From: Streptomyces venezuelae | Lineage (GTDB): Bacteria > Actinomycetota > Actinomycetes > Streptomycetales > Streptomycetaceae | Direction: 5' to 3' | DNA: 64,000 nucleotides | Assembly (NCBI RefSeq): GCF_008642315.1 | Contig: NZ_CP029192.1 | Location: forward strand, 5,146,001-5,210,000 | Program-made: the position numbers and the translations under genes | Notes under the pieces: generated by a model | The model's input: the letters and a program-made list of their open reading frames with translations, nothing else | What the model was told of the DNA's origin: nothing | The model's database searches: none | Part shown: positions 2,632 to 13,759 of the stretch, in pieces | How the letters are laid out: each line of letters begins with the position of its first letter | Numbering within the stretch: position 1 is the first letter of the stretch

Positions 2632-3882
2632 TCAGCCGCCGGGCGGAGCGCAGACCTCGGACTCCGGCAGGTGCCCGGGGGCCGCGTCCTTCGCGGCTTC
2701 GGTGCGCACGGTGTCCAGTTGGGCGAGGAGCTCGTCGAGGCGCTTCTCCGTCGGGTCGCCGAAGTACTGCAGGACGGCCCGGTGGAACGCGTCGCGCACG
2801 CCCGGCGGCATCACGTCCGACGCGTCGAAGCAGAGCGTGCGCGCCTTCGCGGTGAGGATGTCCGCGATGCGGCGGCCGGTCGGGTCGGTCGGCTGGGGGT
2901 CGGACGCGTCGGGGAAGAACGGCTGCAGCCCGTCCGCGGCCCGGGCCCGCCAGAGCGTGCGGGCCCGCTCGCCGGAGAGGCGGTCGACGAGGGCGCGCGC
3001 CGCCGGGTCGTCGCTGAACACGGCGGCCATGTCGCCCGCCACCTCGTACGCGCCGTCGTGCTCGTCCCGGCCGCCCAGATAGCCCGCCGCGGGTTCGACG
3101 CGGACCCGGTCGTGCGCGTACACGTAGCGGACGAAGGCGCCCTGGTGCTCGTGTGTGCAGCGCGGTCCGAGGGAGTCGAGGAGGCCGCGCGGGCCGACGT
3201 ACGGCGTCGTGAGGGACCGGTCGATCGACGCCGTGGTGCGCTGGCCGAGGAGCTCGGCCCAGGTCGTCCACGCCTTGCGGACCCGCGGGTCGCGCCAGTG
3301 CACGTCCCCGGTGGCCCACCGCGTGTACGTGGCGGGGCCCGCCTGGTGGAGGAGGATGTCCTCGATCCAGTCGGTGCCCGGCCAGCCGGACGTGGCCTGC
3401 GAGGCCAGCCCCACGCACCACGCGGGGCGGTCACCGGTGCGGCCCTCCTTGCTCCACACCAGGCTCTTCAGGTCGACCTTCAGCGGCACCCAGTAGGTGC
3501 GGCGTCCGCCGTCCACGTCGAGGCGGGGCGCCCAGGGCGGATAGGCGCGGGCGGTGGCGGCGCGGTCGAGCGGGGTGAGGTGTCCCGCGCGGGCGTGCTC
3601 CACGAGCTCGCCGATGCTGTTGAGGATCGCCACGTCCGGCGGGTCGCCCGCCTCCAGCTGCGCGCCGAGCGTCTCCCGCAGCGAACGGGTCCCCTGGTAG
3701 GTGTACGACTTTCCGGTGCCGTCGTCGAGGCGGTGCAGCATCGCCTCGAAGGCCTTGCCCTCCGGGCCCGTCCAGGGGCCGAGCACGACGAGGGTCTCGG
3801 GCCGCTCGCTCGTGCAGGCGCCCGCGGTGACGGCCAGCAGGCAGGCCGCGAGGAAGGCGCGGAGGGCGGTGCGGCGCTTCAT
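2632..3882 (-). CDS. Extracellular solute-binding lipoprotein (GlnH-like sensor subunit)
   Basis: A 416-residue secreted lipoprotein of the periplasmic-binding-protein fold. The N-terminus has MKRR, a hydrophobic stretch and a lipobox-like TAGAC with Cys23. The mature part begins ETLVVLGPWTG, typical of family-1 sugar or polyamine binding proteins, and has four or more further Cys residues. No permease or ATPase genes are nearby. It is the last gene of a minus-strand operon, and its ATG overlaps the preceding stop (ATGA at 3879-3882), with AGGAG upstream. By analogy with the mycobacterial glnX-glnH-pknG operon, I infer that it binds a ligand outside the cell and signals through the neighbouring membrane protein rather than feeding a transporter. 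The ligand is unknown. Confidence 0.8.
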   Translation of the reverse strand: MKRRTALRAFLAACLLAVTAGACTSERPETLVVLGPWTGPEGKAFEAMLHRLDDGTGKSYTYQGTRSLRETLGAQLEAGDPPDVAILNSIGELVEHARAGHLTPLDRAATARAYPPWAPRLDVDGGRRTYWVPLKVDLKSLVWSKEGRTGDRPAWCVGLASQATSGWPGTDWIEDILLHQAGPATYTRWATGDVHWRDPRVRKAWTTWAELLGQRTTASIDRSLTTPYVGPRGLLDSLGPRCTHEHQGAFVRYVYAHDRVRVEPAAGYLGGRDEHDGAYEVAGDMAAVFSDDPAARALVDRLSGERARTLWRARAADGLQPFFPDASDPQPTDPTGRRIADILTAKARTLCFDASDVMPPGVRDAFHRAVLQYFGDPTEKRLDELLAQLDTVRTEAAKDAAPGHLPESEVCAPPGG

Positions 3883-5057
3883 GGGGCGGCTCCTGGGCGC
3901 GAGACGAGGACGTACTCGCGGCGGTAGGCGTGGAGCGTGGCCGCGGTCACCGCCGCGCTGAACAGCCCGGCGGGCGCCACCCACGGCGCGACCCCGTCCA
4001 GCGAGGAGAGCCGTCCCGCGGACAGGTCGCGGCCCGCGCGGTCGTCCAGGGACCGGATCAGGAGGGGATGGCGGTCGCCGAACGGCCGCTCGTCGACGGT
4101 CGACTCGATCGCCGGGGTCGTGCGCTCGGCGATCCGCGTCGCCGTCGTCACCACACGCTGCTGCGCCCGGTGGGCGAGGACGGCGTCGGCCGTCAGGAAC
4201 GGCACGGCCAGCAGCGGCAGGGCGGCCACCAGCAGCGGGACGCTGACGTGGAGGTGCAGGCGGTGGTGGAGGAACACCTGGGTGCGCCACTGCCCGAACG
4301 CGAGCAGCCCCAGGGCGAGGACGGACAGGGACCCCGCGGCGAGCACGCGGCCGCCCGGCGCCGCCCGGTCCGCGAGCCTGTCGCGCAGCCGGTCCTCCAG
4401 GGAGGAGATGCGGTCGACGACGGCGGTCGCGTCGGAGCGCGAACCGGTGGCGGGACGGCAGGCCGGATAGCCGTCCGCGTCGGCCTTCGCGGTGGGCGCG
4501 GGCCCGGGTGTCGAGCAGAGCATGCTGCGCGCGTACGAGAGTCCGGCGTCGCGCAGCGCGGGGTCGGCGACGTTGTTCTGCGCGAAGGTGATCCAGGTGC
4601 CGTAGTCGACGACGAGCCCGGAGACGACGTCGAGCTCCTGGCGTTCGGCGGTGGTCAGGGCGCCGCTGCGGGCCACCTGGTTGAGGTTCTGCACGGCCCG
4701 CGTGGTGCGGGTGGTGTACCGCTTGCTCAACCCGCTGAGCTGCACGGCCTCCCCGGCCGCCAGACTCTGTGCGGCCTCGCGGTCGGCGATGCGCAGGGAC
4801 GTCTCGGCCTCGGCGAGCCCGACGAGCGCGGGCAGGAAGCTGTCCCGCAGGGCCGCCGAGTCCTCGCGCACGTCCGCGTACGCCCAGCCGAACGCGACGG
4901 CCGCGACGACGGTGAGCAGCGGCAGCGCGACGAGCCGGTCCCGCAGGTACGCGCGGTTGCGCGGGCGTTCGGTGAGCGGCTCCGGCCACGCGTACCGGCG
5001 CAGGGCGCGCAGCGCGTCACCGGCGAGGGGCGGGACGGCGCGCCACAGGGCCGTCAC
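3879..5057 (-). CDS. Four-helix membrane sensor protein (GlnX-like)
   Basis: A 392-residue membrane protein. Predicted helices lie at about residues 42-60, 236-256, 271-290 and 357-376. The large segment between helices 1 and 2 (about residues 62-235) is likely extracytoplasmic and helical, like a four-helix-bundle sensor domain, and contains two cysteines (C181, C200). A second, smaller external loop lies between helices 3 and 4. This layout matches GlnX of mycobacteria, which relays ligand status from the lipoprotein GlnH to the kinase PknG. Both neighbours here fit those roles. The GTG start overlaps the vWA stop as GTGA (5054-5057), and its own stop overlaps the lipoprotein start, so translation is coupled on both sides. 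The analogy rests on topology and gene order, not on a sequence search. Confidence 0.7.
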   Translation of the reverse strand: MTALWRAVPPLAGDALRALRRYAWPEPLTERPRNRAYLRDRLVALPLLTVVAAVAFGWAYADVREDSAALRDSFLPALVGLAEAETSLRIADREAAQSLAAGEAVQLSGLSKRYTTRTTRAVQNLNQVARSGALTTAERQELDVVSGLVVDYGTWITFAQNNVADPALRDAGLSYARSMLCSTPGPAPTAKADADGYPACRPATGSRSDATAVVDRISSLEDRLRDRLADRAAPGGRVLAAGSLSVLALGLLAFGQWRTQVFLHHRLHLHVSVPLLVAALPLLAVPFLTADAVLAHRAQQRVVTTATRIAERTTPAIESTVDERPFGDRHPLLIRSLDDRAGRDLSAGRLSSLDGVAPWVAPAGLFSAAVTAATLHAYRREYVLVSRPGAAP

Positions 5058-6517
5058 CGGGCGGCTCCGGGCGGGCGGGGGCCGGGCAGGTGGACGCCGG
5101 GCAGGACGGTCGTGCTGGACTGGATGCGGGCGGCCTCCACGTCGAACTTCGCGACGCGGTCCCGGAGTTCGACGACGCCGCTCGCCGAGTCGCGGACGCG
5201 GACGAGGCGCCGCAGATGGTCCTGCATGGCGGTGTCGCCCGTCTCGACGGCGAGCCGCCACGCGGCGCCGAGCAGGGTCTCGGCCGCCGCCCGCCTGCCG
5301 AGCCTCAGCTCCGCGCAGGCCTCCTCGAAGGTGCGGTGCAGCTCCTCCTCCTGCCGGTAGTGGGCGACCTGCGGGTCGAGGCGGCTGTAGAGATCGGGGT
5401 CGTCGGTCCAGCGCATCAGCACGGGCTGGGGCGCGGGCAGCCGCAGCGGCGCCGGGCCCTCCGCGTCCAGTTCGACCTCCGTCAGGAGGAGTTCCTTGCC
5501 GATCTTGGCCGGGTCGTAAGGCGCGCCGACGCAGAGGAGGTAGGCGCGGGTCTCCTCGCCGCACGGACCGAGGTCGTACTCCTCGACGGGGCCGCCCGCG
5601 CCCGTCCCGACGCCCGACAGATCGACGCGGTCGGGGCGGAGCGCGACCCGCGTGGGGTGGACCTGCTCGAAGGCGTGCGGGCGCACCCCTGCACGGTGGT
5701 AGAGGCGCAGGCGCAGGCCCGTGACGTGGCGTCCGGCGGCCCGCCCGGTGAGCGAGGCCAGCTCGTCGGGCAGCCGCGTCAGATCCGCCACGGCCCGGGT
5801 GCGGCCGCTCAACGCGCGCGCGATGAGGAGGAGTTCCTCGGTCTCCCAGGCGTCCCCGATGCCCACGACGTCGCAGGTGAAGGCCCGCGCGCACCGTTCG
5901 ACGCGTTCCTGCAGCTCGGCGCGCGTCTCGTACCCGGGCTCGTTCCTGCCGTCGGTGAGGAGCAGCGCGTGCCGCACCCAGCCGCCGTCGCCCGCGGCGG
6001 GCAGTTCCCGGAAGAGCTGCCGGGCCCGCTCCAGCCAGGTGCCCATCGCGGTGCCGCCGCCCGGGGTGCAGTCGTGCAGGGCGGCCTCGGCGGCGGCCCG
6101 CGACTCGGCGTGCGCGACGGCGAGTCCGGGCCGCCTGGGATAGATCATGGCGGTCCTGTCGCCCCCGGCGACCAGGGCGAACAGCGAGCCGTCGGGAATG
6201 CGGGCCAGCGCGCTGACGGCGGCGGCGCGGGCGGCGCCGAGCCGGCTCGGCGGCATCACCATCGAGGAGGAGTGGTCGATGAGCAGCACCTCGGCGAGCC
6301 GCGCCCCGGCCGTACCCGCACCTGCGTCCGCCGGGTCGCGCTCGGTGGCGGCGGGCGGCGCGTGCGCGACGCCCGTCCTGCGGACCGTCACGGTGAGGAC
6401 GGCGTACATGCGGGCCGTGTCCTGTCCGCCCGGGGTGCGCGGGCGGGGCAGCTCGACGACCTGGCTCACTTCCAGGCCGACCGAAGCGGCCGGTTCTTGG
6501 TCTTCTTGCCCAGCCAT
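5054..6517 (-). CDS. von Willebrand factor type A domain protein
   Basis: A 487-residue, probably cytoplasmic protein with no signal peptide. The vWA domain runs from about residue 75 to 260. Its metal-ion adhesion site is seen as DHSSS (D81, S83, S85), with a later GTAMG (Thr) and LLTDGRN (Asp). The C-terminal half is a beta-rich region and then a helical tail. vWA domains bind a partner through a divalent metal. The gene starts inside the kinase gene (52-nt overlap, 6466-6517) and ends overlapping the membrane-protein start, so all three are coupled. In this operon it could be an adaptor or a kinase substrate. Its partner cannot be read from the sequence. Confidence 0.85.
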   Translation of the reverse strand: MAGQEDQEPAASVGLEVSQVVELPRPRTPGGQDTARMYAVLTVTVRRTGVAHAPPAATERDPADAGAGTAGARLAEVLLIDHSSSMVMPPSRLGAARAAAVSALARIPDGSLFALVAGGDRTAMIYPRRPGLAVAHAESRAAAEAALHDCTPGGGTAMGTWLERARQLFRELPAAGDGGWVRHALLLTDGRNEPGYETRAELQERVERCARAFTCDVVGIGDAWETEELLLIARALSGRTRAVADLTRLPDELASLTGRAAGRHVTGLRLRLYHRAGVRPHAFEQVHPTRVALRPDRVDLSGVGTGAGGPVEEYDLGPCGEETRAYLLCVGAPYDPAKIGKELLLTEVELDAEGPAPLRLPAPQPVLMRWTDDPDLYSRLDPQVAHYRQEEELHRTFEEACAELRLGRRAAAETLLGAAWRLAVETGDTAMQDHLRRLVRVRDSASGVVELRDRVAKFDVEAARIQSSTTVLPGVHLPGPRPPGAAR

Positions 6518-8880
6518 GGGAAGTCCTTGCCGATGCGTGCGTGCAGGAAGCCGAAGGGGCGTACCGCGTAGGCGCGGTCGAGGAGGATCTCGGCGAGCGG
6601 TACGCCGTCGTCCGGCGTCGGCGCGTCCCGGGCGGCCTGGTGGGCCAGGATCCGGTAGAAGCGGGAGAGGTCGGTGCGCAACGCCCTTATGTCCGCGGGG
6701 AATTCGAGCAGCGGGTCGGCGTGCGCGGCGACGGCTCGCAGCTGGGCAGCGGTGATCGCGCCACCTCTCCCACCGCCGTCTTCTTCTCCCAGGAGCCGGT
6801 GCGCCGCACCCCACACCTCCGCCTTCATCCGTACGCGCGACGGTTCGTCGGTCAGGCCGTGCGCGGAGAAGAGCTGGGCCAGCGCGCGTACCGCCGCGCC
6901 CAGTCCTTCGGCGTCCCGCGCGTGGTCGACGCGGATGCGCACGGCGGCCGTGCGGGCGGCGGTGCGGTGCCGGGAGTGCTGTGGCACGGTGTCGAGCGCG
7001 GCGATTGCGTCGGTGAGGGCGTCGGGGCCGCCGAGGGCGAGCCGCGCCCGGACGGCGCCGAAGGCCGCGCTGCCCAGCGAGGGGTTCCGCAGCCGGACGG
7101 CCTCGTAGAAGGTGAGGGCCTCGTGCGGCCGCCCGAGCTGTTCCGCGCAGTGGCCGAGGGCCAGCTTCGGCGCGTACTCGCCGGGGATCGCGGCGTAGAC
7201 CCGGTCGAAGCGGCCGCGGGCCTCCGGCACCCGGGAGCGGGCCAGCGCGAGCAGCCCCCGGTGCCAGTCGAGCCGCCAGTCGTGCGGCCCGTTCGCGGGC
7301 CCTATGGCGTCCTCGGCCAGGGCGAGCGCGGTCTCGGCGCCGGTGAGGTCCTCCGCGCGCAGCGCCACCCGCAGCCGCAGCCTGCACCGCAGCAGGTGCA
7401 CCTCGGGGGAGTCCCGCCAGTCGCCGGTGTGCTGGAGCAGCGCCTCGGGGTCGTCGTCGCTGAGCCTGCTGAGCTCGCCGTGGTGGTCGTCGTCCGGGTC
7501 GGGGCGCGGTACGGGGAGCCGTCGGGCCACCTCGGGCGGGGCGGGGGCGGGGTGGTGGGGCGCGGTCCGCGGGGCGGCCCAGTGCCGGACCTCGGGGGCG
7601 GCGCCGAGCCCGCCGTCGAGGGCGTACGCGGACTGGAGGAAGAGCGGCGAGGGTTCGAACGTCTCGGCGCCCGTGCGCAGGGACCGCAGTTCGCGGAAGA
7701 CGCCGCGGAGCTGCTCCTCCATCTCGCGCGCCGTGGCGAAGCGTTCGGCGCGCGCGGTGCGGGTGGCGCGGCGCAGGGCCCTGGCGAGGGAGACGAGGCC
7801 GAGTCCGCGGTGGTGCCCGGTGGCGTCGTCGAGCGGGGCGAGCGCCGCGAGGTCCGCCAGGTCGTGGCGGGTCGCCCCGAGCCCGCACAGGGTGCGCAGC
7901 GTCTCGCCGAGGCTGAACAGGTCGTCCTGCGGCGCGGATTCGCCGTGGGGGCCGACGCTGGGCGCGCGGTAGAGGGCGGTGGTGAGGCCGGGTGCGCCCG
8001 CGCGGCGCACGCTGCCGACGTCGACGAGCTTGGTGGTGGAGCCGTCGTGCATGACGTTGGGCGGCTTCAGGTCGCCGTACACCTTGCCGCGCTCGGGGGC
8101 GTGCAGGTGCGCGAGCGCGGCGAGGATCCGCACGCCGTACGCGAGGACGAACTCCGGGAAGCGGTCGCCGCCGAACTCGTCGGGGTGCTCGTGGGCGCGG
8201 GCCCGCACCTCTTCGAGGTTGAGCCCGTCGACGTACTGGAGGACGAGGAAGTCCCCGACCCCGGCGTGGTGCCCGTAGTTGAACACCCGGATGAACCCGT
8301 CGTGGTTGAGCTCGACGAGCTCCCTGCGTTCGCCTTCCAGGAGGCGGTACGACTCCGTGGCGAGCTCGGCGTGCAGCATCTTCACGGCGACCGCGCGGTC
8401 GTCGACCTTGGTGTCGTGGGCGAGGCAGACCTCGCCCATCCCGCCGTACCCGAGCGGCCGCACCAGGCGGTACTGGCCGGCGAGGAGCGTGCCGGGCGGC
8501 AGAGGCAGGCCGCTGAGGGCGACGGGGGCGCCACCCGCGTTGTCCGCCCGGTCCAGGAGCGTGATCTCGGGCAGGACGGTGGGGTCGGGGTGTTCCGGGG
8601 GGAGGGCGACGCGGGCCGGGCGCGGTGGGTCCGCGGTGACGCCGAGGTCGACGATCCAGTGCTGGGAGGACTCCTCGACGGATGCCGGGCCGGGGCGCGA
8701 CGGCGGTTCGGGGGGCGTCGGTTCAGGCCCCGGCTCGGAGACCGGTGCCGCGTGCCCCGTGTCCGTGGCGGAGTGCAGCCCGGTCTCGGCGTCCACGCGC
8801 TCGCCGCTGGCCAGGCAGTACCCGGTCGGCGACACGGTTCCGGAACAGCCCGGGTGCGGGCACGACTTGCCCTTCGTCAC
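6466..8880 (-). CDS. PknG-like serine/threonine protein kinase with TPR region
   Basis: An 804-residue cytoplasmic kinase. Residues 1-30 form a degenerate zinc-ribbon (C7, C12, C22); Ser25 sits where a fourth Cys of a YCxxC knuckle would be expected. The kinase domain runs from about residue 136 to 390. It has the glycine loop GYGGMGEV, K167 (VAVK), a catalytic loop YGDLKPPNVM (D270) without the usual HRD arginine, and DVG (D287) instead of DFG. Both changes are typical of PknG. The C-terminal half is TPR-like helical repeats, also as in PknG. PknG adjusts glutamate and central metabolism in response to amino acids. The GTG start overlaps the protease stop as GTGA (8877-8880). The kinase assignment is firm; the PknG role is inferred. 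Confidence 0.88.
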   Translation of the reverse strand: MTKGKSCPHPGCSGTVSPTGYCLASGERVDAETGLHSATDTGHAAPVSEPGPEPTPPEPPSRPGPASVEESSQHWIVDLGVTADPPRPARVALPPEHPDPTVLPEITLLDRADNAGGAPVALSGLPLPPGTLLAGQYRLVRPLGYGGMGEVCLAHDTKVDDRAVAVKMLHAELATESYRLLEGERRELVELNHDGFIRVFNYGHHAGVGDFLVLQYVDGLNLEEVRARAHEHPDEFGGDRFPEFVLAYGVRILAALAHLHAPERGKVYGDLKPPNVMHDGSTTKLVDVGSVRRAGAPGLTTALYRAPSVGPHGESAPQDDLFSLGETLRTLCGLGATRHDLADLAALAPLDDATGHHRGLGLVSLARALRRATRTARAERFATAREMEEQLRGVFRELRSLRTGAETFEPSPLFLQSAYALDGGLGAAPEVRHWAAPRTAPHHPAPAPPEVARRLPVPRPDPDDDHHGELSRLSDDDPEALLQHTGDWRDSPEVHLLRCRLRLRVALRAEDLTGAETALALAEDAIGPANGPHDWRLDWHRGLLALARSRVPEARGRFDRVYAAIPGEYAPKLALGHCAEQLGRPHEALTFYEAVRLRNPSLGSAAFGAVRARLALGGPDALTDAIAALDTVPQHSRHRTAARTAAVRIRVDHARDAEGLGAAVRALAQLFSAHGLTDEPSRVRMKAEVWGAAHRLLGEEDGGGRGGAITAAQLRAVAAHADPLLEFPADIRALRTDLSRFYRILAHQAARDAPTPDDGVPLAEILLDRAYAVRPFGFLHARIGKDFPWLGKKTKNRPLRSAWK

Positions 8881-10679
8881 GCCTCACCGCCCGCGTCCGC
8901 GTCGGCGAGCCGCCGCACCACCCGCGCGAACGCCGTCACCGCCCGTTCGGCGTCGGCCAGCGGGCAGGGTCCGGCGAGCAGGAGCCGCTGTGCCGCGCGG
9001 TAGGGCCCGACCGCGTCCGGGTGCTCGGCGAGGCCGCGCCGGGCGAGCCGCGCCAGGTGGTCGCGGAGCAGCCCGCGCAGCCGCAGGTGCTCGTCGAGCA
9101 CGGTGCGCAGCTCGCTCTCGGCGCGTTCGGCCCGCAACAGGTAGGTGTCCACGGCCTGTTCGGCGTACGAGAGCTTCTCCAGGAGACGAGGACCGCCCCG
9201 GCCGGTCAGCGGGCGCATCTCGTTGCTGAGCTGGACGGTCCACAGGGCGGCCCGCGCGGCGTACCCGGTCGCGACCGGCGGGTCGACGACGTGCGGTTCG
9301 ACGCGGTGGAAGAGGCGCCGCGCACTGCGCTCGGTGTCGGCGAGGGCGTCGACGCGGGAGCCGATCCGCAGCAGCCACTGGGCGGCACGCTCGGCGGGCA
9401 GCAGCTTCTCCGCGAGGGCGTAGGTGAAGCCGTGCGTGCTGGAGCGGACCACGAGCAGCAGGCGGGCGCCGGAGGCGGCCAGTTCGCCGAGTGCCTTGGC
9501 CGCGGCGGCCGGTTCGGTGGCGGAGCGGTCGGCATAGAGCACGGCGACGGCGGGGCGCCGCCGCGGGGCGGCGCGCCTTCCTGCGGCGTGCCGCAGTTCG
9601 TGCCGCAGGACGGCGAGGGCCTCGCGGAGCTCCGGCTGGCCGGGGTCCTCCAGGGCGGCGCCCTCCAGGTCGAGGACGAGGCCGATGCTGCCGACGCGGG
9701 GTGCGATGCCGGCGCGCGAGAGGAGCGAGTCGCCGCCGTCCCGCGGCGCGTCGGTGCCGGGTCCGACGGGCCGCACCGCCAGTTGCGGGGACTGTTCGCG
9801 GTCGGCCATGTTCAGGACGACGTACAGGGCCTGGCGTGCCCGGTCGTCGTCCTCGGCGATGAAGAGGACCTCGGTGTCCCAGGCGTCCGCGTCCCCGTTG
9901 AGCCAGCGGGTGACGGTGCGCTGGAGGCCGTGCGGGCGGGCGGTGCGGGCGGCGTCGGCCGAGACGACGCGGTGGCCGGGGATGGCGTGCGGCCCGGTCA
10001 CGTACCGCTCGGCGAAGCGGCGGAAGTACTTGGCGACGGTGGCCGCCGGGATCATGTACCCGTGCTCGCCCCGCTCGTCGGCCTGCGCCAGGATCCCGAG
10101 CAGCCGGTCGCTGCCCTCCTCCCGTACGCCCGCCCCGCTGAACCCGCCCCGCAGCCGCTGCCCGGAGTCGGCGCCCGCCCCGGTGAGGTCGATCTGCACC
10201 CGCTCGTCGCCCTCCCCGCCGGGCCCCCGGCAGACCCCGGTGAGCCACTGCCCGCCCGACTGGTGCTCGGGGAATCCGTCGACGAGGACCGTGGCGCCCC
10301 GGTAGTCGAGCGTGCGGTGCAGCGCGACCGGCGAGGGGAGGGGCGCGGGGTCGTCGAGGACGAGGACCGCGAGGTCGCCCTGCGCCTTGCCGAAGGGCGG
10401 CACCCAGTGGCCCGCCGCGACGGTCGCGGTGCGGTGCGGGGTGCGGGTGAGGCCCTGGAGCAGCGGGAACTCGACCTGCACGCGGTCGGGCCGCTGGCCC
10501 GTCGCGGGGTCGCGGATCACATGGGCGCAGGTGAGGACGCGGTCGGCGCCGAACAGCACCCCGGCACCCAGCACGTCACCGCTGCCCGAGGCCGCCCAGC
10601 GCCGCAGACGGACCCGCCAACTCGCGTGGTCCACCGGCAGGTTGACGCCCCCGCCCGCGTGTGCCGCGTCCCCCTCCAT
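8877..10679 (-). CDS. Trypsin-like serine protease with long helical C-terminal region
   Basis: A 600-residue protein and the first gene of the five-gene operon. Residues 20-240 form a chymotrypsin-fold protease with a complete triad: H53 (TCAHV), D102 (GDLAV) and S181 (GGFSGAG). No signal peptide is seen, so it likely acts in the cytoplasm, unlike most secreted trypsins. Residues 250-600 are an Arg/Ala/Leu-rich region with no family I recognise, probably a helical or effector-associated module. Intracellular trypsin-like domains joined to vWA proteins occur in predicted bacterial signalling or conflict cassettes (vWA/protease ternary systems), and this gene fits that pattern. Target and activation are unknown. 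About 140 bp separate it from the upstream PBP gene, so the operon promoter is probably there. Confidence 0.8.
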   Translation of the reverse strand: MEGDAAHAGGGVNLPVDHASWRVRLRRWAASGSGDVLGAGVLFGADRVLTCAHVIRDPATGQRPDRVQVEFPLLQGLTRTPHRTATVAAGHWVPPFGKAQGDLAVLVLDDPAPLPSPVALHRTLDYRGATVLVDGFPEHQSGGQWLTGVCRGPGGEGDERVQIDLTGAGADSGQRLRGGFSGAGVREEGSDRLLGILAQADERGEHGYMIPAATVAKYFRRFAERYVTGPHAIPGHRVVSADAARTARPHGLQRTVTRWLNGDADAWDTEVLFIAEDDDRARQALYVVLNMADREQSPQLAVRPVGPGTDAPRDGGDSLLSRAGIAPRVGSIGLVLDLEGAALEDPGQPELREALAVLRHELRHAAGRRAAPRRRPAVAVLYADRSATEPAAAAKALGELAASGARLLLVVRSSTHGFTYALAEKLLPAERAAQWLLRIGSRVDALADTERSARRLFHRVEPHVVDPPVATGYAARAALWTVQLSNEMRPLTGRGGPRLLEKLSYAEQAVDTYLLRAERAESELRTVLDEHLRLRGLLRDHLARLARRGLAEHPDAVGPYRAAQRLLLAGPCPLADAERAVTAFARVVRRLADADAGGEA

Positions 10680-10821: not shown

Positions 10822-12765
10822 CTACCCCTCGTACTCTTTCCAGATCCGCGGCGGCAGCACGTTGCCGCGCTCCGACTTCTTCCCGGCCACCCCCGAGAGC
10901 GGCAGCAGCTGTGGCGTGCCGGGCCGCAGCCGGAACAGTGTCACCGCCGTCGACAGGTCCTTCGAGAAGCCCGTGAACCAGGCGGACCTGAGCCGGTCCT
11001 GGTCGCCCGTGCGGCCCGCCGCGACGTCCACGCCGAGGCGCCTGCCCGCCGAGCGCAGGGCGTCGGCGACTTCCTGGGCCACCTGCGGGTCGAGGGCGCG
11101 GCGGGCCGAGGGCGGGGTGAGGCCGGGCAGGGTCTCGCCGTTCCTGACGACCTTCGTCACCGAGTACGGGTCGCGCCGCAGGCCGTCGTCGGCGAACGTC
11201 CCGTACGCGGTGGCCATGCGGATGGCGCTCGGTGTCGACGTGCCGATGGAGAACGTCGGCTCCAGACGGGCCATGCTCTGCCGCAGCAGCCCGGCCGCGA
11301 CCGCGGTCCTGCGCACCATGTCCTGCCCGACGTCCTTGCCGAGGCGTACGTACGTGGCGTTGCCGCCGGACGCCAGCGCCTCCCGCAGCGTCGGCCGGTC
11401 CGGGTCGGGCTCGCCGCCGGCCCGGCGCAGCACACCGTCCGCCTCGTACCGGCTGTCGGCCAGGACGCTCCGGACCGCCCCGGCCGCGCGATCCCGCACG
11501 GGCGCCACCCCACCGGCCGCCGCCTCGTGCCCGGACACTCCGTGCTGCAACGCCGCGGCCAGCACGAACGGCTTGAACGCCGAGCCCACGGGGACGCCCG
11601 AGGTGTCGGCGTTGTTGGTGAAGTGCGTGGTGGCGTCGGGTCCGCCGTACAGCGCGACGAGCGCCCCGTCGGAGGGCCGCACGGACGCCGCGCCCACCTG
11701 CACGTGCCGGTCGGCCGACCGCTTCTTCGGGTCGAGGTCGCGCGCGACGACGCGGCGCACCGCCCGCTCCAGACGGCGCACCTTGCTCTTGTCGAACGTG
11801 GTGTGGATCTCGTGGCCGCCGTGCGCGAGGTCCTCGTCGGTGAGGCCGGTCTGCTGCTTGAGGTACCGGTTCGCGACGTCGACGAGGTAGCCGGTCTGGC
11901 CGCCGAGGCTGGTGGAGCGCGACCGGCTGCGGGGCTCGGGGAACGTCCGGTACTTCGCCCGCTCCTTCTCCGTCATCAGCCCGACCGCGACCTGCCGGTC
12001 CAGGATCCACGCCCAGCGCTGCCGCGCCCGCTCGTGGTTGGCGGCACTGACCGCCGGGTCGTACAGGTCGGCGCCCTTCAGCATGGCGGCGAGCATCGCC
12101 CCCTGGCTGGGGTTCAGCTCCTTCGCGGGGATGCCGTAGTAGGCGCGGGCGGCCGCCTCGATGCCGTTGGCGCCGCGCCCGAACCAGCTGGTGTTGAGAT
12201 AGCCCTTGAGGATCTCGCCCTTGCTCTTCTTGCGGTCCACCTTCAGGGCGATGACGAACTCCTTGACCTTCCGCGTGACCGTCTGGTCCTGCGAGAGGTA
12301 GGTGTTCTTCACGTACTGCTGGGTGATGGTGGAGCCGCCCTGCGTCTCCCGCCCGCGCGCCATGTTCACGGCGGCACGGGCCAGGCCCGTGAGGGAGACC
12401 CCGGCGTCCTCGTAGAAGGTCTCGTTCTCGGCGGCGATCACCGCGGCCACGGCGGAGGGCGCGATCTGGTTCAGCTCCACGTTCTGCCGGTTGACGGCCC
12501 CGGTGCTGACCATCTGCGAACCGTCGGACCAGTAGTAGACGTTGGCCTCGCGGCGGGCCGCCGCGTTCTCGTCGGGAATGTCCACGCTGACGTACACGCA
12601 GACGAAGAGCGTGGCGACGGCGATGGCGAGAAGGCCCGTCGTGCCGAGGAGCTGGCGCCACGACGGGAGCCAGCGCCGGACACCGCTCCTCCCGGCGCGC
12701 GGGTAGTCCACGAACCGTCGCCGGCCGCGGCGACGCGTCTTCTTCCCCTGAGCATGTGTACCCAT
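10822..12765 (-). CDS. Class A penicillin-binding protein with altered transpeptidase motifs
   Basis: A 647-residue bifunctional peptidoglycan synthase. A basic cytoplasmic tail is followed by one membrane helix (about residues 39-61). The GT51 glycosyltransferase domain has E113 (AENETFYED), QGGSTITQQ and E169 (KVKEF). The transpeptidase domain starts near residue 350 with SAFK (S395, K398). The other two active-site motifs deviate: the SxN position reads GGN (N469) and KTG reads RTG (R585). Glycosyltransferase motifs are intact, so chain polymerisation is expected; cross-linking may be weak or specialised. The ATG at 12765 has no clear ribosome site. It could be a sporulation-type PBP of Streptomyces, but nothing nearby proves that. 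Confidence 0.9.
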   Translation of the reverse strand: MGTHAQGKKTRRRGRRRFVDYPRAGRSGVRRWLPSWRQLLGTTGLLAIAVATLFVCVYVSVDIPDENAAARREANVYYWSDGSQMVSTGAVNRQNVELNQIAPSAVAAVIAAENETFYEDAGVSLTGLARAAVNMARGRETQGGSTITQQYVKNTYLSQDQTVTRKVKEFVIALKVDRKKSKGEILKGYLNTSWFGRGANGIEAAARAYYGIPAKELNPSQGAMLAAMLKGADLYDPAVSAANHERARQRWAWILDRQVAVGLMTEKERAKYRTFPEPRSRSRSTSLGGQTGYLVDVANRYLKQQTGLTDEDLAHGGHEIHTTFDKSKVRRLERAVRRVVARDLDPKKRSADRHVQVGAASVRPSDGALVALYGGPDATTHFTNNADTSGVPVGSAFKPFVLAAALQHGVSGHEAAAGGVAPVRDRAAGAVRSVLADSRYEADGVLRRAGGEPDPDRPTLREALASGGNATYVRLGKDVGQDMVRRTAVAAGLLRQSMARLEPTFSIGTSTPSAIRMATAYGTFADDGLRRDPYSVTKVVRNGETLPGLTPPSARRALDPQVAQEVADALRSAGRRLGVDVAAGRTGDQDRLRSAWFTGFSKDLSTAVTLFRLRPGTPQLLPLSGVAGKKSERGNVLPPRIWKEYEG

Positions 12766-12873: not shown

Positions 12874-13554
12874 TCAGCGGACCTTGGTCAGCGCACCCTT
12901 GTTCTTGAGGACGGCGAGGCCGTTCGCCCAGAGCTGGTTGACGCGGGACCGCTCCTGCGCGTTCGGGTACGCGTTGGTGCAGGACGTGCCGGGGCCGCCG
13001 CCGGACATCAGCTCGCTGCACGGACCCGAGTAGTGGTCGGGAAGACCGAGCACGTGACCCGTCTCGTGCGCCGTCACACGCGTCGAGTTGTACTGCTGGT
13101 TCTGCCGGTAGTCCAGGAAGATGTACCCGCGGCCGTGTCCGTCGGTGGAGGCGTACGAGCCACGCGAGTCATTGCCCTCGCGGTACTGGAAGTTACCGGT
13201 CGAGCTGGTCTCCTGCAGCTTCACATTGCTGACCGAGGAGTTCCAGATCTGCGTGCTCTGGGCTATCTGGCTGCGGAAGCTGGGCGCCCGGCTGGTGTTG
13301 TACGTGACGGTGACGACCTGGATGCCGGGCTTCGCCGCCTGCTTCTCCAGCGCCGACTTCATGACGGCGTCGAAGAACTGCTTGTTGGCGGCCTGCTCCT
13401 CGGCCGACCCGACGTACGACGACGTGGTGTACGCCGACGAGGGCTTGACCGTCTCGGGTGCCGGCGCCGCGAACGCGGAGGGCGCGGCGGCCAGCGAGCC
13501 CACGAGGGCGGCCGAGCCGAGAACGGCGAGGATGCTGGTGCGGGATCTGTTCAT
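12874..13554 (-). CDS. snpA: Snapalysin-type zinc metalloprotease (M7), secreted
   Basis: A 226-residue secreted protease that hydrolyses casein and similar proteins. The signal peptide is [12 protein letters not shown] followed by Ala-rich sequence ending AFAAPA, then a short propeptide. The zinc site [13 protein letters not shown] (HExxHxxGxxD) is typical of the M7 family, where Asp is the third metal ligand. Two Cys pairs near the C-terminus may form disulfides. I chose the ATG at 13554 because GAAGGGA lies about 7 nt upstream; a longer in-frame start would destroy the signal peptide. Known snpA genes are usually flanked by a divergent LysR activator. None is present here, and the next gene is an MFS exporter on the same strand. 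Confidence 0.9.
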
Positions 13555-13759
13555 GGGGGTGTCCCTTCCAGGGAAAGGCCGGTATCCGGTGGGCCCGGGA
13601 TGTCCGGGCCGCCGGGACCGGAGGCCTGCGGGGTGCGACGTCCGGTCGGGGACGAGTATTCGGGGAACGGGGCGCGTTCGTACCGATGCCATTGGGCGAT
13701 AACGTCAAAGCATCAACTGTTAGACGTACGCGCTTGGTTGCGCCGCGCGCGGACGCGCA

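Follow-up and report, generated by a model that had tools for sequence, protein, structure and literature searches.

A remodelled pknG-type gene cassette in Streptomyces venezuelae that may couple an extracytoplasmic ligand to a cytoplasmic trypsin-like protease

Few bacterial Ser/Thr kinases have been studied as closely as PknG. The operon described for it joins pknG to genes for a lipoprotein and a membrane protein, and the available part of that paper contains no mention of vWA, von Willebrand, a phosphatase or a protease (PMC6069109); the same part names S. griseus SGR_4432 and S. coelicolor SCO1468 as kinases linked to binding proteins. According to the available parts of two further papers, von Willebrand factor A (vWA) proteins occur in vWA-MoxR ternary systems, where a MoxR AAA ATPase gene lies between the VMAP and vWA genes (PMC7159879), and in the TerY-P triad, which comprises a vWA protein, a PP2C and a kinase with a zinc ribbon or OB fold (PMC11090510). 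We analysed a stretch of 64,000 nucleotides of Streptomyces venezuelae (assembly GCF_008642315.1, contig NZ_CP029192.1, positions 5,146,001 to 5,210,000; here called the window), which contains five adjacent genes for a trypsin-like protease, a PknG-like kinase, a vWA protein, a GlnX-like membrane protein and an exported solute-binding protein (SBP). On balance, we favor the interpretation that this cassette is a remodelled GlnX-PknG paralogue that would couple an extracytoplasmic ligand to the cytoplasmic protease.

The genome holding the window is a single contig of 8.94 Mb, and all five open reading frames (ORFs) were verified on the minus strand (Table 1). An earlier note on this DNA had described five minus-strand genes coupled by GTGA and ATGA overlaps, and the ORFs and sequence agreed with it, with 4-nt overlaps at 8880-8877 (GTGA), 5057-5054 (GTGA) and 3882-3879 (ATGA). 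The 52-nt overlap of the kinase and vWA genes (6466-6517) proposed in that note holds if the vWA gene starts at ATG 6517, upstream of which lies an AAGGA, but not if the in-frame GTG 6469 is the start, which would produce a 4-nt GTGA overlap like those at the other junctions. Membrane segments were called by hydropathy with a threshold of 1.5. The protease, kinase and vWA proteins had no membrane segment at this threshold and no export signal, and the binding protein had one N-terminal segment.

The kinase was matched by the Pfam models Pkinase (3.9e-14) and PknG_TPR (PF16918; 7.1e-39, 134 bits against a cut-off of 27), and its loop reads GDLKPPN without an HRD, followed by DVG. The kinship with PknG that had been read from this loop and the TPR tail was thereby confirmed. 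A search of the PDB with the kinase returned the PknG entry 2pzi at 1.4e-43, the top row being 7mxb (2.3e-46), which is titled only Ser/Thr protein kinases. The catalytic K, E, D, N and D residues were invariant in 104 of 104 aligned kinases, with C, G or N as the residue preceding D. The rubredoxin domain (PF16919) was not matched in the window kinase by Pfam, although it was matched in the canonical PknG of the same genome. The N terminus of the window kinase (window 8780-8880) retains part of a rubredoxin-like Cys set (CPHPGC...GYC), many relatives have four Cys, and a loose four-Cys pattern was present in 59 of the 94 other kinases from loci with this type of SBP (family 1). Corynebacterial PknG lacks the rubredoxin domain, according to the available part of PMC8546545, and this domain is no strict requirement for membership in the PknG family.

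The canonical pknG of the same genome lies elsewhere (PknG_TPR, 294 bits), and its locus, L003, was used for comparison. The window kinase, vWA protein and protease C terminus matched the canonical kinase, vWA and helical protein with 202 to 207, 185 and 25 to 27 bits, respectively. The last of these matches involves the C-terminal helical (HEL) domain of the protease, which is homologous to the C-terminal part of the canonical-locus helical protein by phmmer (E values of 5.6e-9 and 1.9e-9; 24.5 and 26.8 bits) and by profile. These matches indicate that the window cassette is, as judged from sequence, a remodelled pknG paralogue: its sensor has been swapped, a trypsin domain has been attached to one that resembles the helical protein, and genes for PP2C and FHA were not found. 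The vWA protein itself was matched by VWA_3 (1.2e-10), with VWA_3_C below its cut-off, and has DxSxS, GGT and TDG motifs. The earlier note had recognized the DxSxS protein and counted it as an addition to the known operon; the identification stood, but the protein is no addition, as the canonical pknG locus of this genome already contains it and 10 of 17 canonical-type loci do. None of the three-gene canonical loci (such as L050 and L051) has it. HEL, vWA, PP2C and FHA are all present in 8 of these 17 loci, which lack a family-1 SBP throughout, and all missing from 5; the other 4 have some of them. Canonical loci of other actinomycetes often carry these extra genes too, so that vWA is a long-standing partner of PknG except in the three-gene loci. 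The kinase, PP2C and vWA of the canonical locus resemble the TerY-P triad, and the genomes of L039 and L041 have a second PknG with a glnX-glnH pair opposite it on the complementary strand.

Pfam had no match for the membrane protein encoded by gene 4. An hhalign comparison with canonical GlnX gave a probability of 99% and an E value of 2.3e-18, which sustains the GlnX homology that had been claimed. The four helices claimed with it were only partly recovered: three membrane segments were detected compared with four in canonical GlnX, and the fourth helix, which is expected from relatives, falls under the hydropathy threshold. Canonical GlnX ends in [DE]YR in 13 of 17 canonical loci (e.g., RRLSEYR). 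Among 103 rows of window-type GlnX, a few of which are overlapping ORFs and not GlnX tails, 57 carry [DE]YR in their final 26 residues, and [DE]YRF (e.g., RIDEYRF) occurs in 49. The tail of the window clade reads YRREYVLV instead. Binding of GlnX to the concave TPR surface is proposed in the available part of PMC8546545, and we infer that the GlnX tail would dock on the TPR domain of the kinase.

The protease was matched by Trypsin_2 (E value, 9.6e-9), and its AlphaFold model had a pLDDT of 89. The residues H53, D102 and S181 form the triad of S1/trypsin-like peptidases within the fold; they were invariant across 24 aligned proteases, down to 26% identity with the window protein, and intact in 71 of 73 in a larger alignment. 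The proposal of an intracellular trypsin-like protease with this triad was consequently upheld by the Trypsin_2 match, the conserved residues and the lack of a membrane segment, and the protease is predicted to be cytoplasmic and apparently active. Degeneration of the genes was rejected, since the catalytic residues of both kinase and protease are conserved. The middle domain has conserved columns at A292, D293, G330, D384 and R406; no fold was found for it among the Foldseek and VIA rows, which mainly cover the trypsin part and so barely probed the middle and helical parts. A Pfam scan of the 24 proteases returned trypsin families only, with no PDZ match; a VMAP-C domain would show in such a scan only if the Pfam copy includes a model for it. 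The closest named protease is 97% identical and is filed under S. venezuelae.

The binding protein had been taken for a counterpart of GlnH, and this did not hold. Canonical GlnH belongs to SBP_bac_3, and the 18 binding proteins detected with a GlnH profile (E value cut-off of 1e-5) did not include any of the window type. The profile of the window SBP placed it in family 1, the sugar type (best PDB match, 2.4e-7), and its structure model (pLDDT, 90.8) had a glucose-binding protein as the best Foldseek match (E value, 5.6e-17). A family-3 sensor of the GlnH type was rejected on this profile and fold, and the modelled fold suggests a sugar or an oligosaccharide as the probable ligand. In the window clade, the lipobox (AGAC) is weak, and several relatives in other clades have no Cys there. 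Across the family, C156, C242 and C351 are invariant or nearly so and many Trp residues are conserved.

The conservation of the cassette, which proved widespread, was surveyed from two sides. A search with the protease (199 Streptomyces genomes; E value of 1e-15; six candidates scored per genome) gave matches in 41 genomes, some to the trypsin part only. The surroundings were inspected in 20 of these 41 genomes, chosen for long matches, and a PknG-like kinase followed the protease or was fused to it in all 19 with kinase-side sequence; the twentieth (L095) stops at a contig end. An SBP-only search of genome contigs had at least 573 confirmed places, of which 80 were kept as loci. These were mostly from Streptomyces and also from Actinacidiphila, Amycolatopsis, Kutzneria, Solihabitans, Actinokineospora, Streptosporangium, Actinomadura (binding protein only, on a cut contig) and a Pseudonocardiales metagenome-assembled genome (MAG). 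A PknG-like kinase was present in 71 of the 80; in the other 9, the SBP lies at most 3.6 kb from a contig end with the break upstream of the SBP, and one of these keeps a piece of the kinase. The 71 kinase-bearing loci included 66 complete ones, comprising 38 with five genes, 5 with a shorter protease, 14 with three genes, 8 with fusions and 1 with gaps.

All searches together yielded 122 loci. Complete family-1 loci numbered 90, with five cut loci excluded (L126, which has three genes and starts at a contig end, and L162, L165, L170 and L182), and at least two genomes were counted twice, as L083 and L104, like L099 and L146, have identical kinases. The protease with HEL, kinase, vWA, GlnX-like protein and SBP were all present in 59 of the 90, and the computed gene order was the same in 59 of 59. 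A further 5 have the five genes with a shorter protease in which HEL was not detectable, 15 have the kinase, GlnX-like protein and SBP only, 10 have a protease-kinase fusion with GlnX-like protein and SBP but no vWA, and 1 (L156) has a separate protease without vWA. In the divergent clade typified by L150, the protease is about 440 amino acids long and the vWA protein is divergent; in the three members read out (L150, L164 and L170), the vWA protein ends in a zinc-ribbon-like four-Cys motif. Among the 199 Streptomyces genomes, an SBP scoring at least 300 bits was present in 81 (about two in five), other binding proteins scored at most 190 bits and three fragments fell in between. Two or more PknG_TPR matches were found in 80 genomes, and 74 had both features (Fisher p of about 1e-38, not corrected for relatedness); the SBP was missing from six genomes with two PknG_TPR matches, and the reverse applied to seven, all of them assemblies of at least 540 contigs. 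A chance neighbourhood was rejected on the SBP-anchored search and the single gene order. The earlier note had named the lack of GlnX similarity and of a conserved neighbourhood as grounds for abandoning a single system; GlnX homology and a conserved neighbourhood were both clearly found, and a single conserved system is borne out.

Several observations tie the protease to the other parts. In ten loci, none of which has vWA, a single polypeptide comprises both protease and kinase. In a tree of 104 kinase rows, which was built by a quick method, rooted at the midpoint and had several long branches flagged, 9 of the 10 fusions were included, and the fusion label needs at least two changes, one for a Streptomyces clade of 8 and one for the Pseudonocardiales MAG (L137); the fusion thus arose in at least two independent events. 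Where the protease is separate, 64 of 65 complete loci have a vWA gene, compared with 0 of 25 where it is fused or absent; the apparent exception, L156, has two assembly gaps with 551 N. Three-gene forms have neither protease nor vWA and occur both in the clade of the window and in Amycolatopsis. In L113 and L114, the flanking PBP gene is about 63% identical to that of the window, protease and vWA were not found and another gene occupies the position of the protease; in L114, this is a MerR-family regulator gene (L114:5176-6153), which separates the PBP gene from the three-gene cassette. Over 59 loci, the five proteins have pairwise distances that correlate with r values of 0.92 to 0.97, as expected for one unit. 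The recurrent fusion and the joint absence of protease and vWA support a pathway from ligand through SBP, GlnX-like protein and kinase to protease; control of the protease by the kinase is plausible, with the fusion as Rosetta-stone support.

The same loci bear on two other explanations. The main rival, which we regard as unlikely, is that the protease is a feedback or shut-off element that trims or degrades a part of its own cassette, such as the kinase, the vWA protein or the cytoplasmic tail of the GlnX-like protein. Its tie to the kinase, including the fusion, would fit cutting in cis and three-gene versions without a protease exist, but nothing specific favours a target within the cassette over an outward one. 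Somewhat less probable still is an ordinary nutrient-control PknG paralogue acting on a FHA substrate of the GarA/OdhI type, with protease and vWA as minor accessory scaffolds. The PknG-type kinase and GlnX are those of such a system, and the classical operon is similar to the three-gene versions, which make up 15 of the 90 complete loci; however, FHA and PP2C genes were found in 0 of 95 family-1 loci with a kinase (by models of one sequence each, some loci being cut), the sensor family differs and the protease triad is kept in relatives as distant as 26% identity.

Under the preferred interpretation of a ligand-controlled protease, the exported family-1 SBP would capture a small extracellular solute and, once loaded, contact the GlnX-like protein on its outer part. 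The short tail at the C terminus of the GlnX-like protein would signal to the TPR domain of the kinase. The vWA protein and the HEL domain would form a docking pair, and the kinase together with both would hold the trypsin-like protease; the protease would thus be tied to the kinase through HEL and vWA and is seen tied to it by fusion. The kinase would control the protease by phosphorylation or conformational change, and in the simplest reading, signalling would alter protease activity or substrate access, so that one or more cytoplasmic substrates are cut and intracellular proteolysis may be switched by a compound from outside. We infer the ligand class, the direction of the signal, the control of the protease by the kinase and any substrate. 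The scheme as a whole, in which an extracellular small molecule leads to limited intracellular proteolysis via SBP, GlnX relay, PknG-like kinase and kinase-docked protease and the docking pair is dispensable once protease and kinase are one chain, is put forward tentatively.

A number of observations weigh against this interpretation. The 15 complete loci without protease and vWA imply that the protease is not the sole output, control could run in the reverse direction, with the protease acting on the kinase, and 2 of 73 proteases lack an intact triad. The docking pair is questioned by six loci, one of them cut (L150, L159, L160, L164, L167 and L170), in which vWA accompanies a shorter protease without detectable HEL, by two canonical loci (L044 and L046) that break the pairing of HEL and vWA, by the extent of the HEL homology (about 90 residues at 25 to 27 bits pairwise, stronger by profile), and by the fusions, 5 of 10 of which weakly match a broad helical model over the middle domain and none the narrow C-terminal model. 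The [DE]YR tail is confined to 57 of the 103 window-type rows and is missing from the window's own GlnX-like protein. SBP_bac_1 matches the window SBP at 7.5e-5, under the Pfam cut-off, and a ligand class read from a modelled fold is weak.

The earlier note had also linked the cassette to vWA-centred conflict systems. The combination of vWA, trypsin-like and kinase proteins does recall the systems in the available parts of PMC7159879 and PMC11090510, and searches with PADLOC gave, for the trypsin part, weak matches to LmuA (2e-4) and Avs1b (0.03) and, for the kinase, generic kinase matches to PD-T4-6 and mad6, which canonical PknG gives as well. The link was nevertheless not supported. A Pfam scan that covered the five genes and ten neighbours revealed no MoxR or other AAA ATPase gene, the gene between the protease and vWA genes being the kinase; PP2C was not found in the cassette loci (the same 95, by the single-sequence model); the vWA, GlnX-like and SBP proteins had no PADLOC match; and an exported solute receptor would, in our judgement, be unusual in such systems. 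Identity with VMAP/MoxR or TerY-P systems was accordingly not supported, and a conflict or anti-phage role of either type appears very improbable.

Table 1. Positions of the cassette genes, their domains and the comparison locus
Feature	Position	Strand	Remarks
Gene 1, trypsin-like serine protease	8877-10679	minus	600 aa ORF
Trypsin-like domain	10005-10637	minus	~aa 15-225; H53, D102, S181
Middle alpha/beta domain	9390-9962	minus	~aa 240-430; secondary structure of model, conserved columns
C-terminal helical (HEL) domain	8910-9197	minus	~aa 495-590; phmmer and profile matches
Gene 2, PknG-like Ser/Thr kinase with TPR tail	6466-8880	minus	804 aa ORF
Kinase domain	7888-8472	minus	aa 137-331; GDLKPPN / DVG
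PknG-type TPR domain	6628-7557	minus	aa 442-751; Pfam
Gene 3, vWA protein	5054-6517	minus	487 aa from ATG; alternative start GTG 6469
Gene 4, GlnX-like membrane protein	3879-5057	minus	392 aa ORF
C-terminal tail of GlnX-like protein	3882-3920	minus	REYVLV..; [DE]YR in many relatives and canonical GlnX
Gene 5, exported family-1 (sugar-type) SBP	2632-3882	minus	416 aa ORF
Canonical Streptomyces pknG locus	L003:1256-12170		same genome, outside the window; order glnX-glnH-helical-pknG-PP2C-vWA-FHA

Near the cassette, the window also contains a snapalysin-type M7 metallopeptidase gene (12874-13692), which adjoins a transglycosylase/transpeptidase gene (10822-12765).

If the proposed pathway is true, antibiotic-producing bacteria would have a ligand-gated cytoplasmic protease system. 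The variants with a swapped sensor or with a grafted or fused effector offer a direct way to test GlnX-to-PknG signalling and to learn what is done by the vWA and helical proteins that many actinomycete pknG loci encode. The families of the kinase and of the GlnX-like protein are known; no description of the whole assembly, with its swapped sensor and grafted protease, was found in the open-access literature. Compared with proteases of the HtrA/DegS type, the cassette protease has the same trypsin-like fold and intact triad but no PDZ match, no export signal and other C-terminal domains. Within the available parts of the papers cited above, the TerY-P triad has vWA and kinase in common with the cassette (the canonical Streptomyces locus also having PP2C), but in the cassette PP2C was not found, the kinase carries the PknG TPR and a sensor and a protease are present. 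The vWA-MoxR/VMAP systems likewise share a vWA protein and a trypsin-like peptidase with the cassette, which differs in that no MoxR was found, the separate PknG-type kinase has intact catalytic residues and the sensor is exported. In comparison with the canonical Streptomyces locus L003, the cassette has trypsin-like and middle domains joined to the helical-like domain, PP2C and FHA were not found, and the SBP family and gene order are different, whereas homology extends to the kinase, vWA, GlnX and a portion of the helical protein. Finally, compared with the GlnH-GlnX-PknG system of mycobacteria and corynebacteria, as described in the available parts of PMC6069109, PMC9769921 and PMC8546545, the cassette has an SBP_bac_1- rather than SBP_bac_3-type sensor, a protease and a vWA protein, a kinase in which rubredoxin is unrecognised and another gene order, but the two have in common a PknG-type kinase with a TPR tail, a GlnX homologue and an exported SBP in a tight operon.

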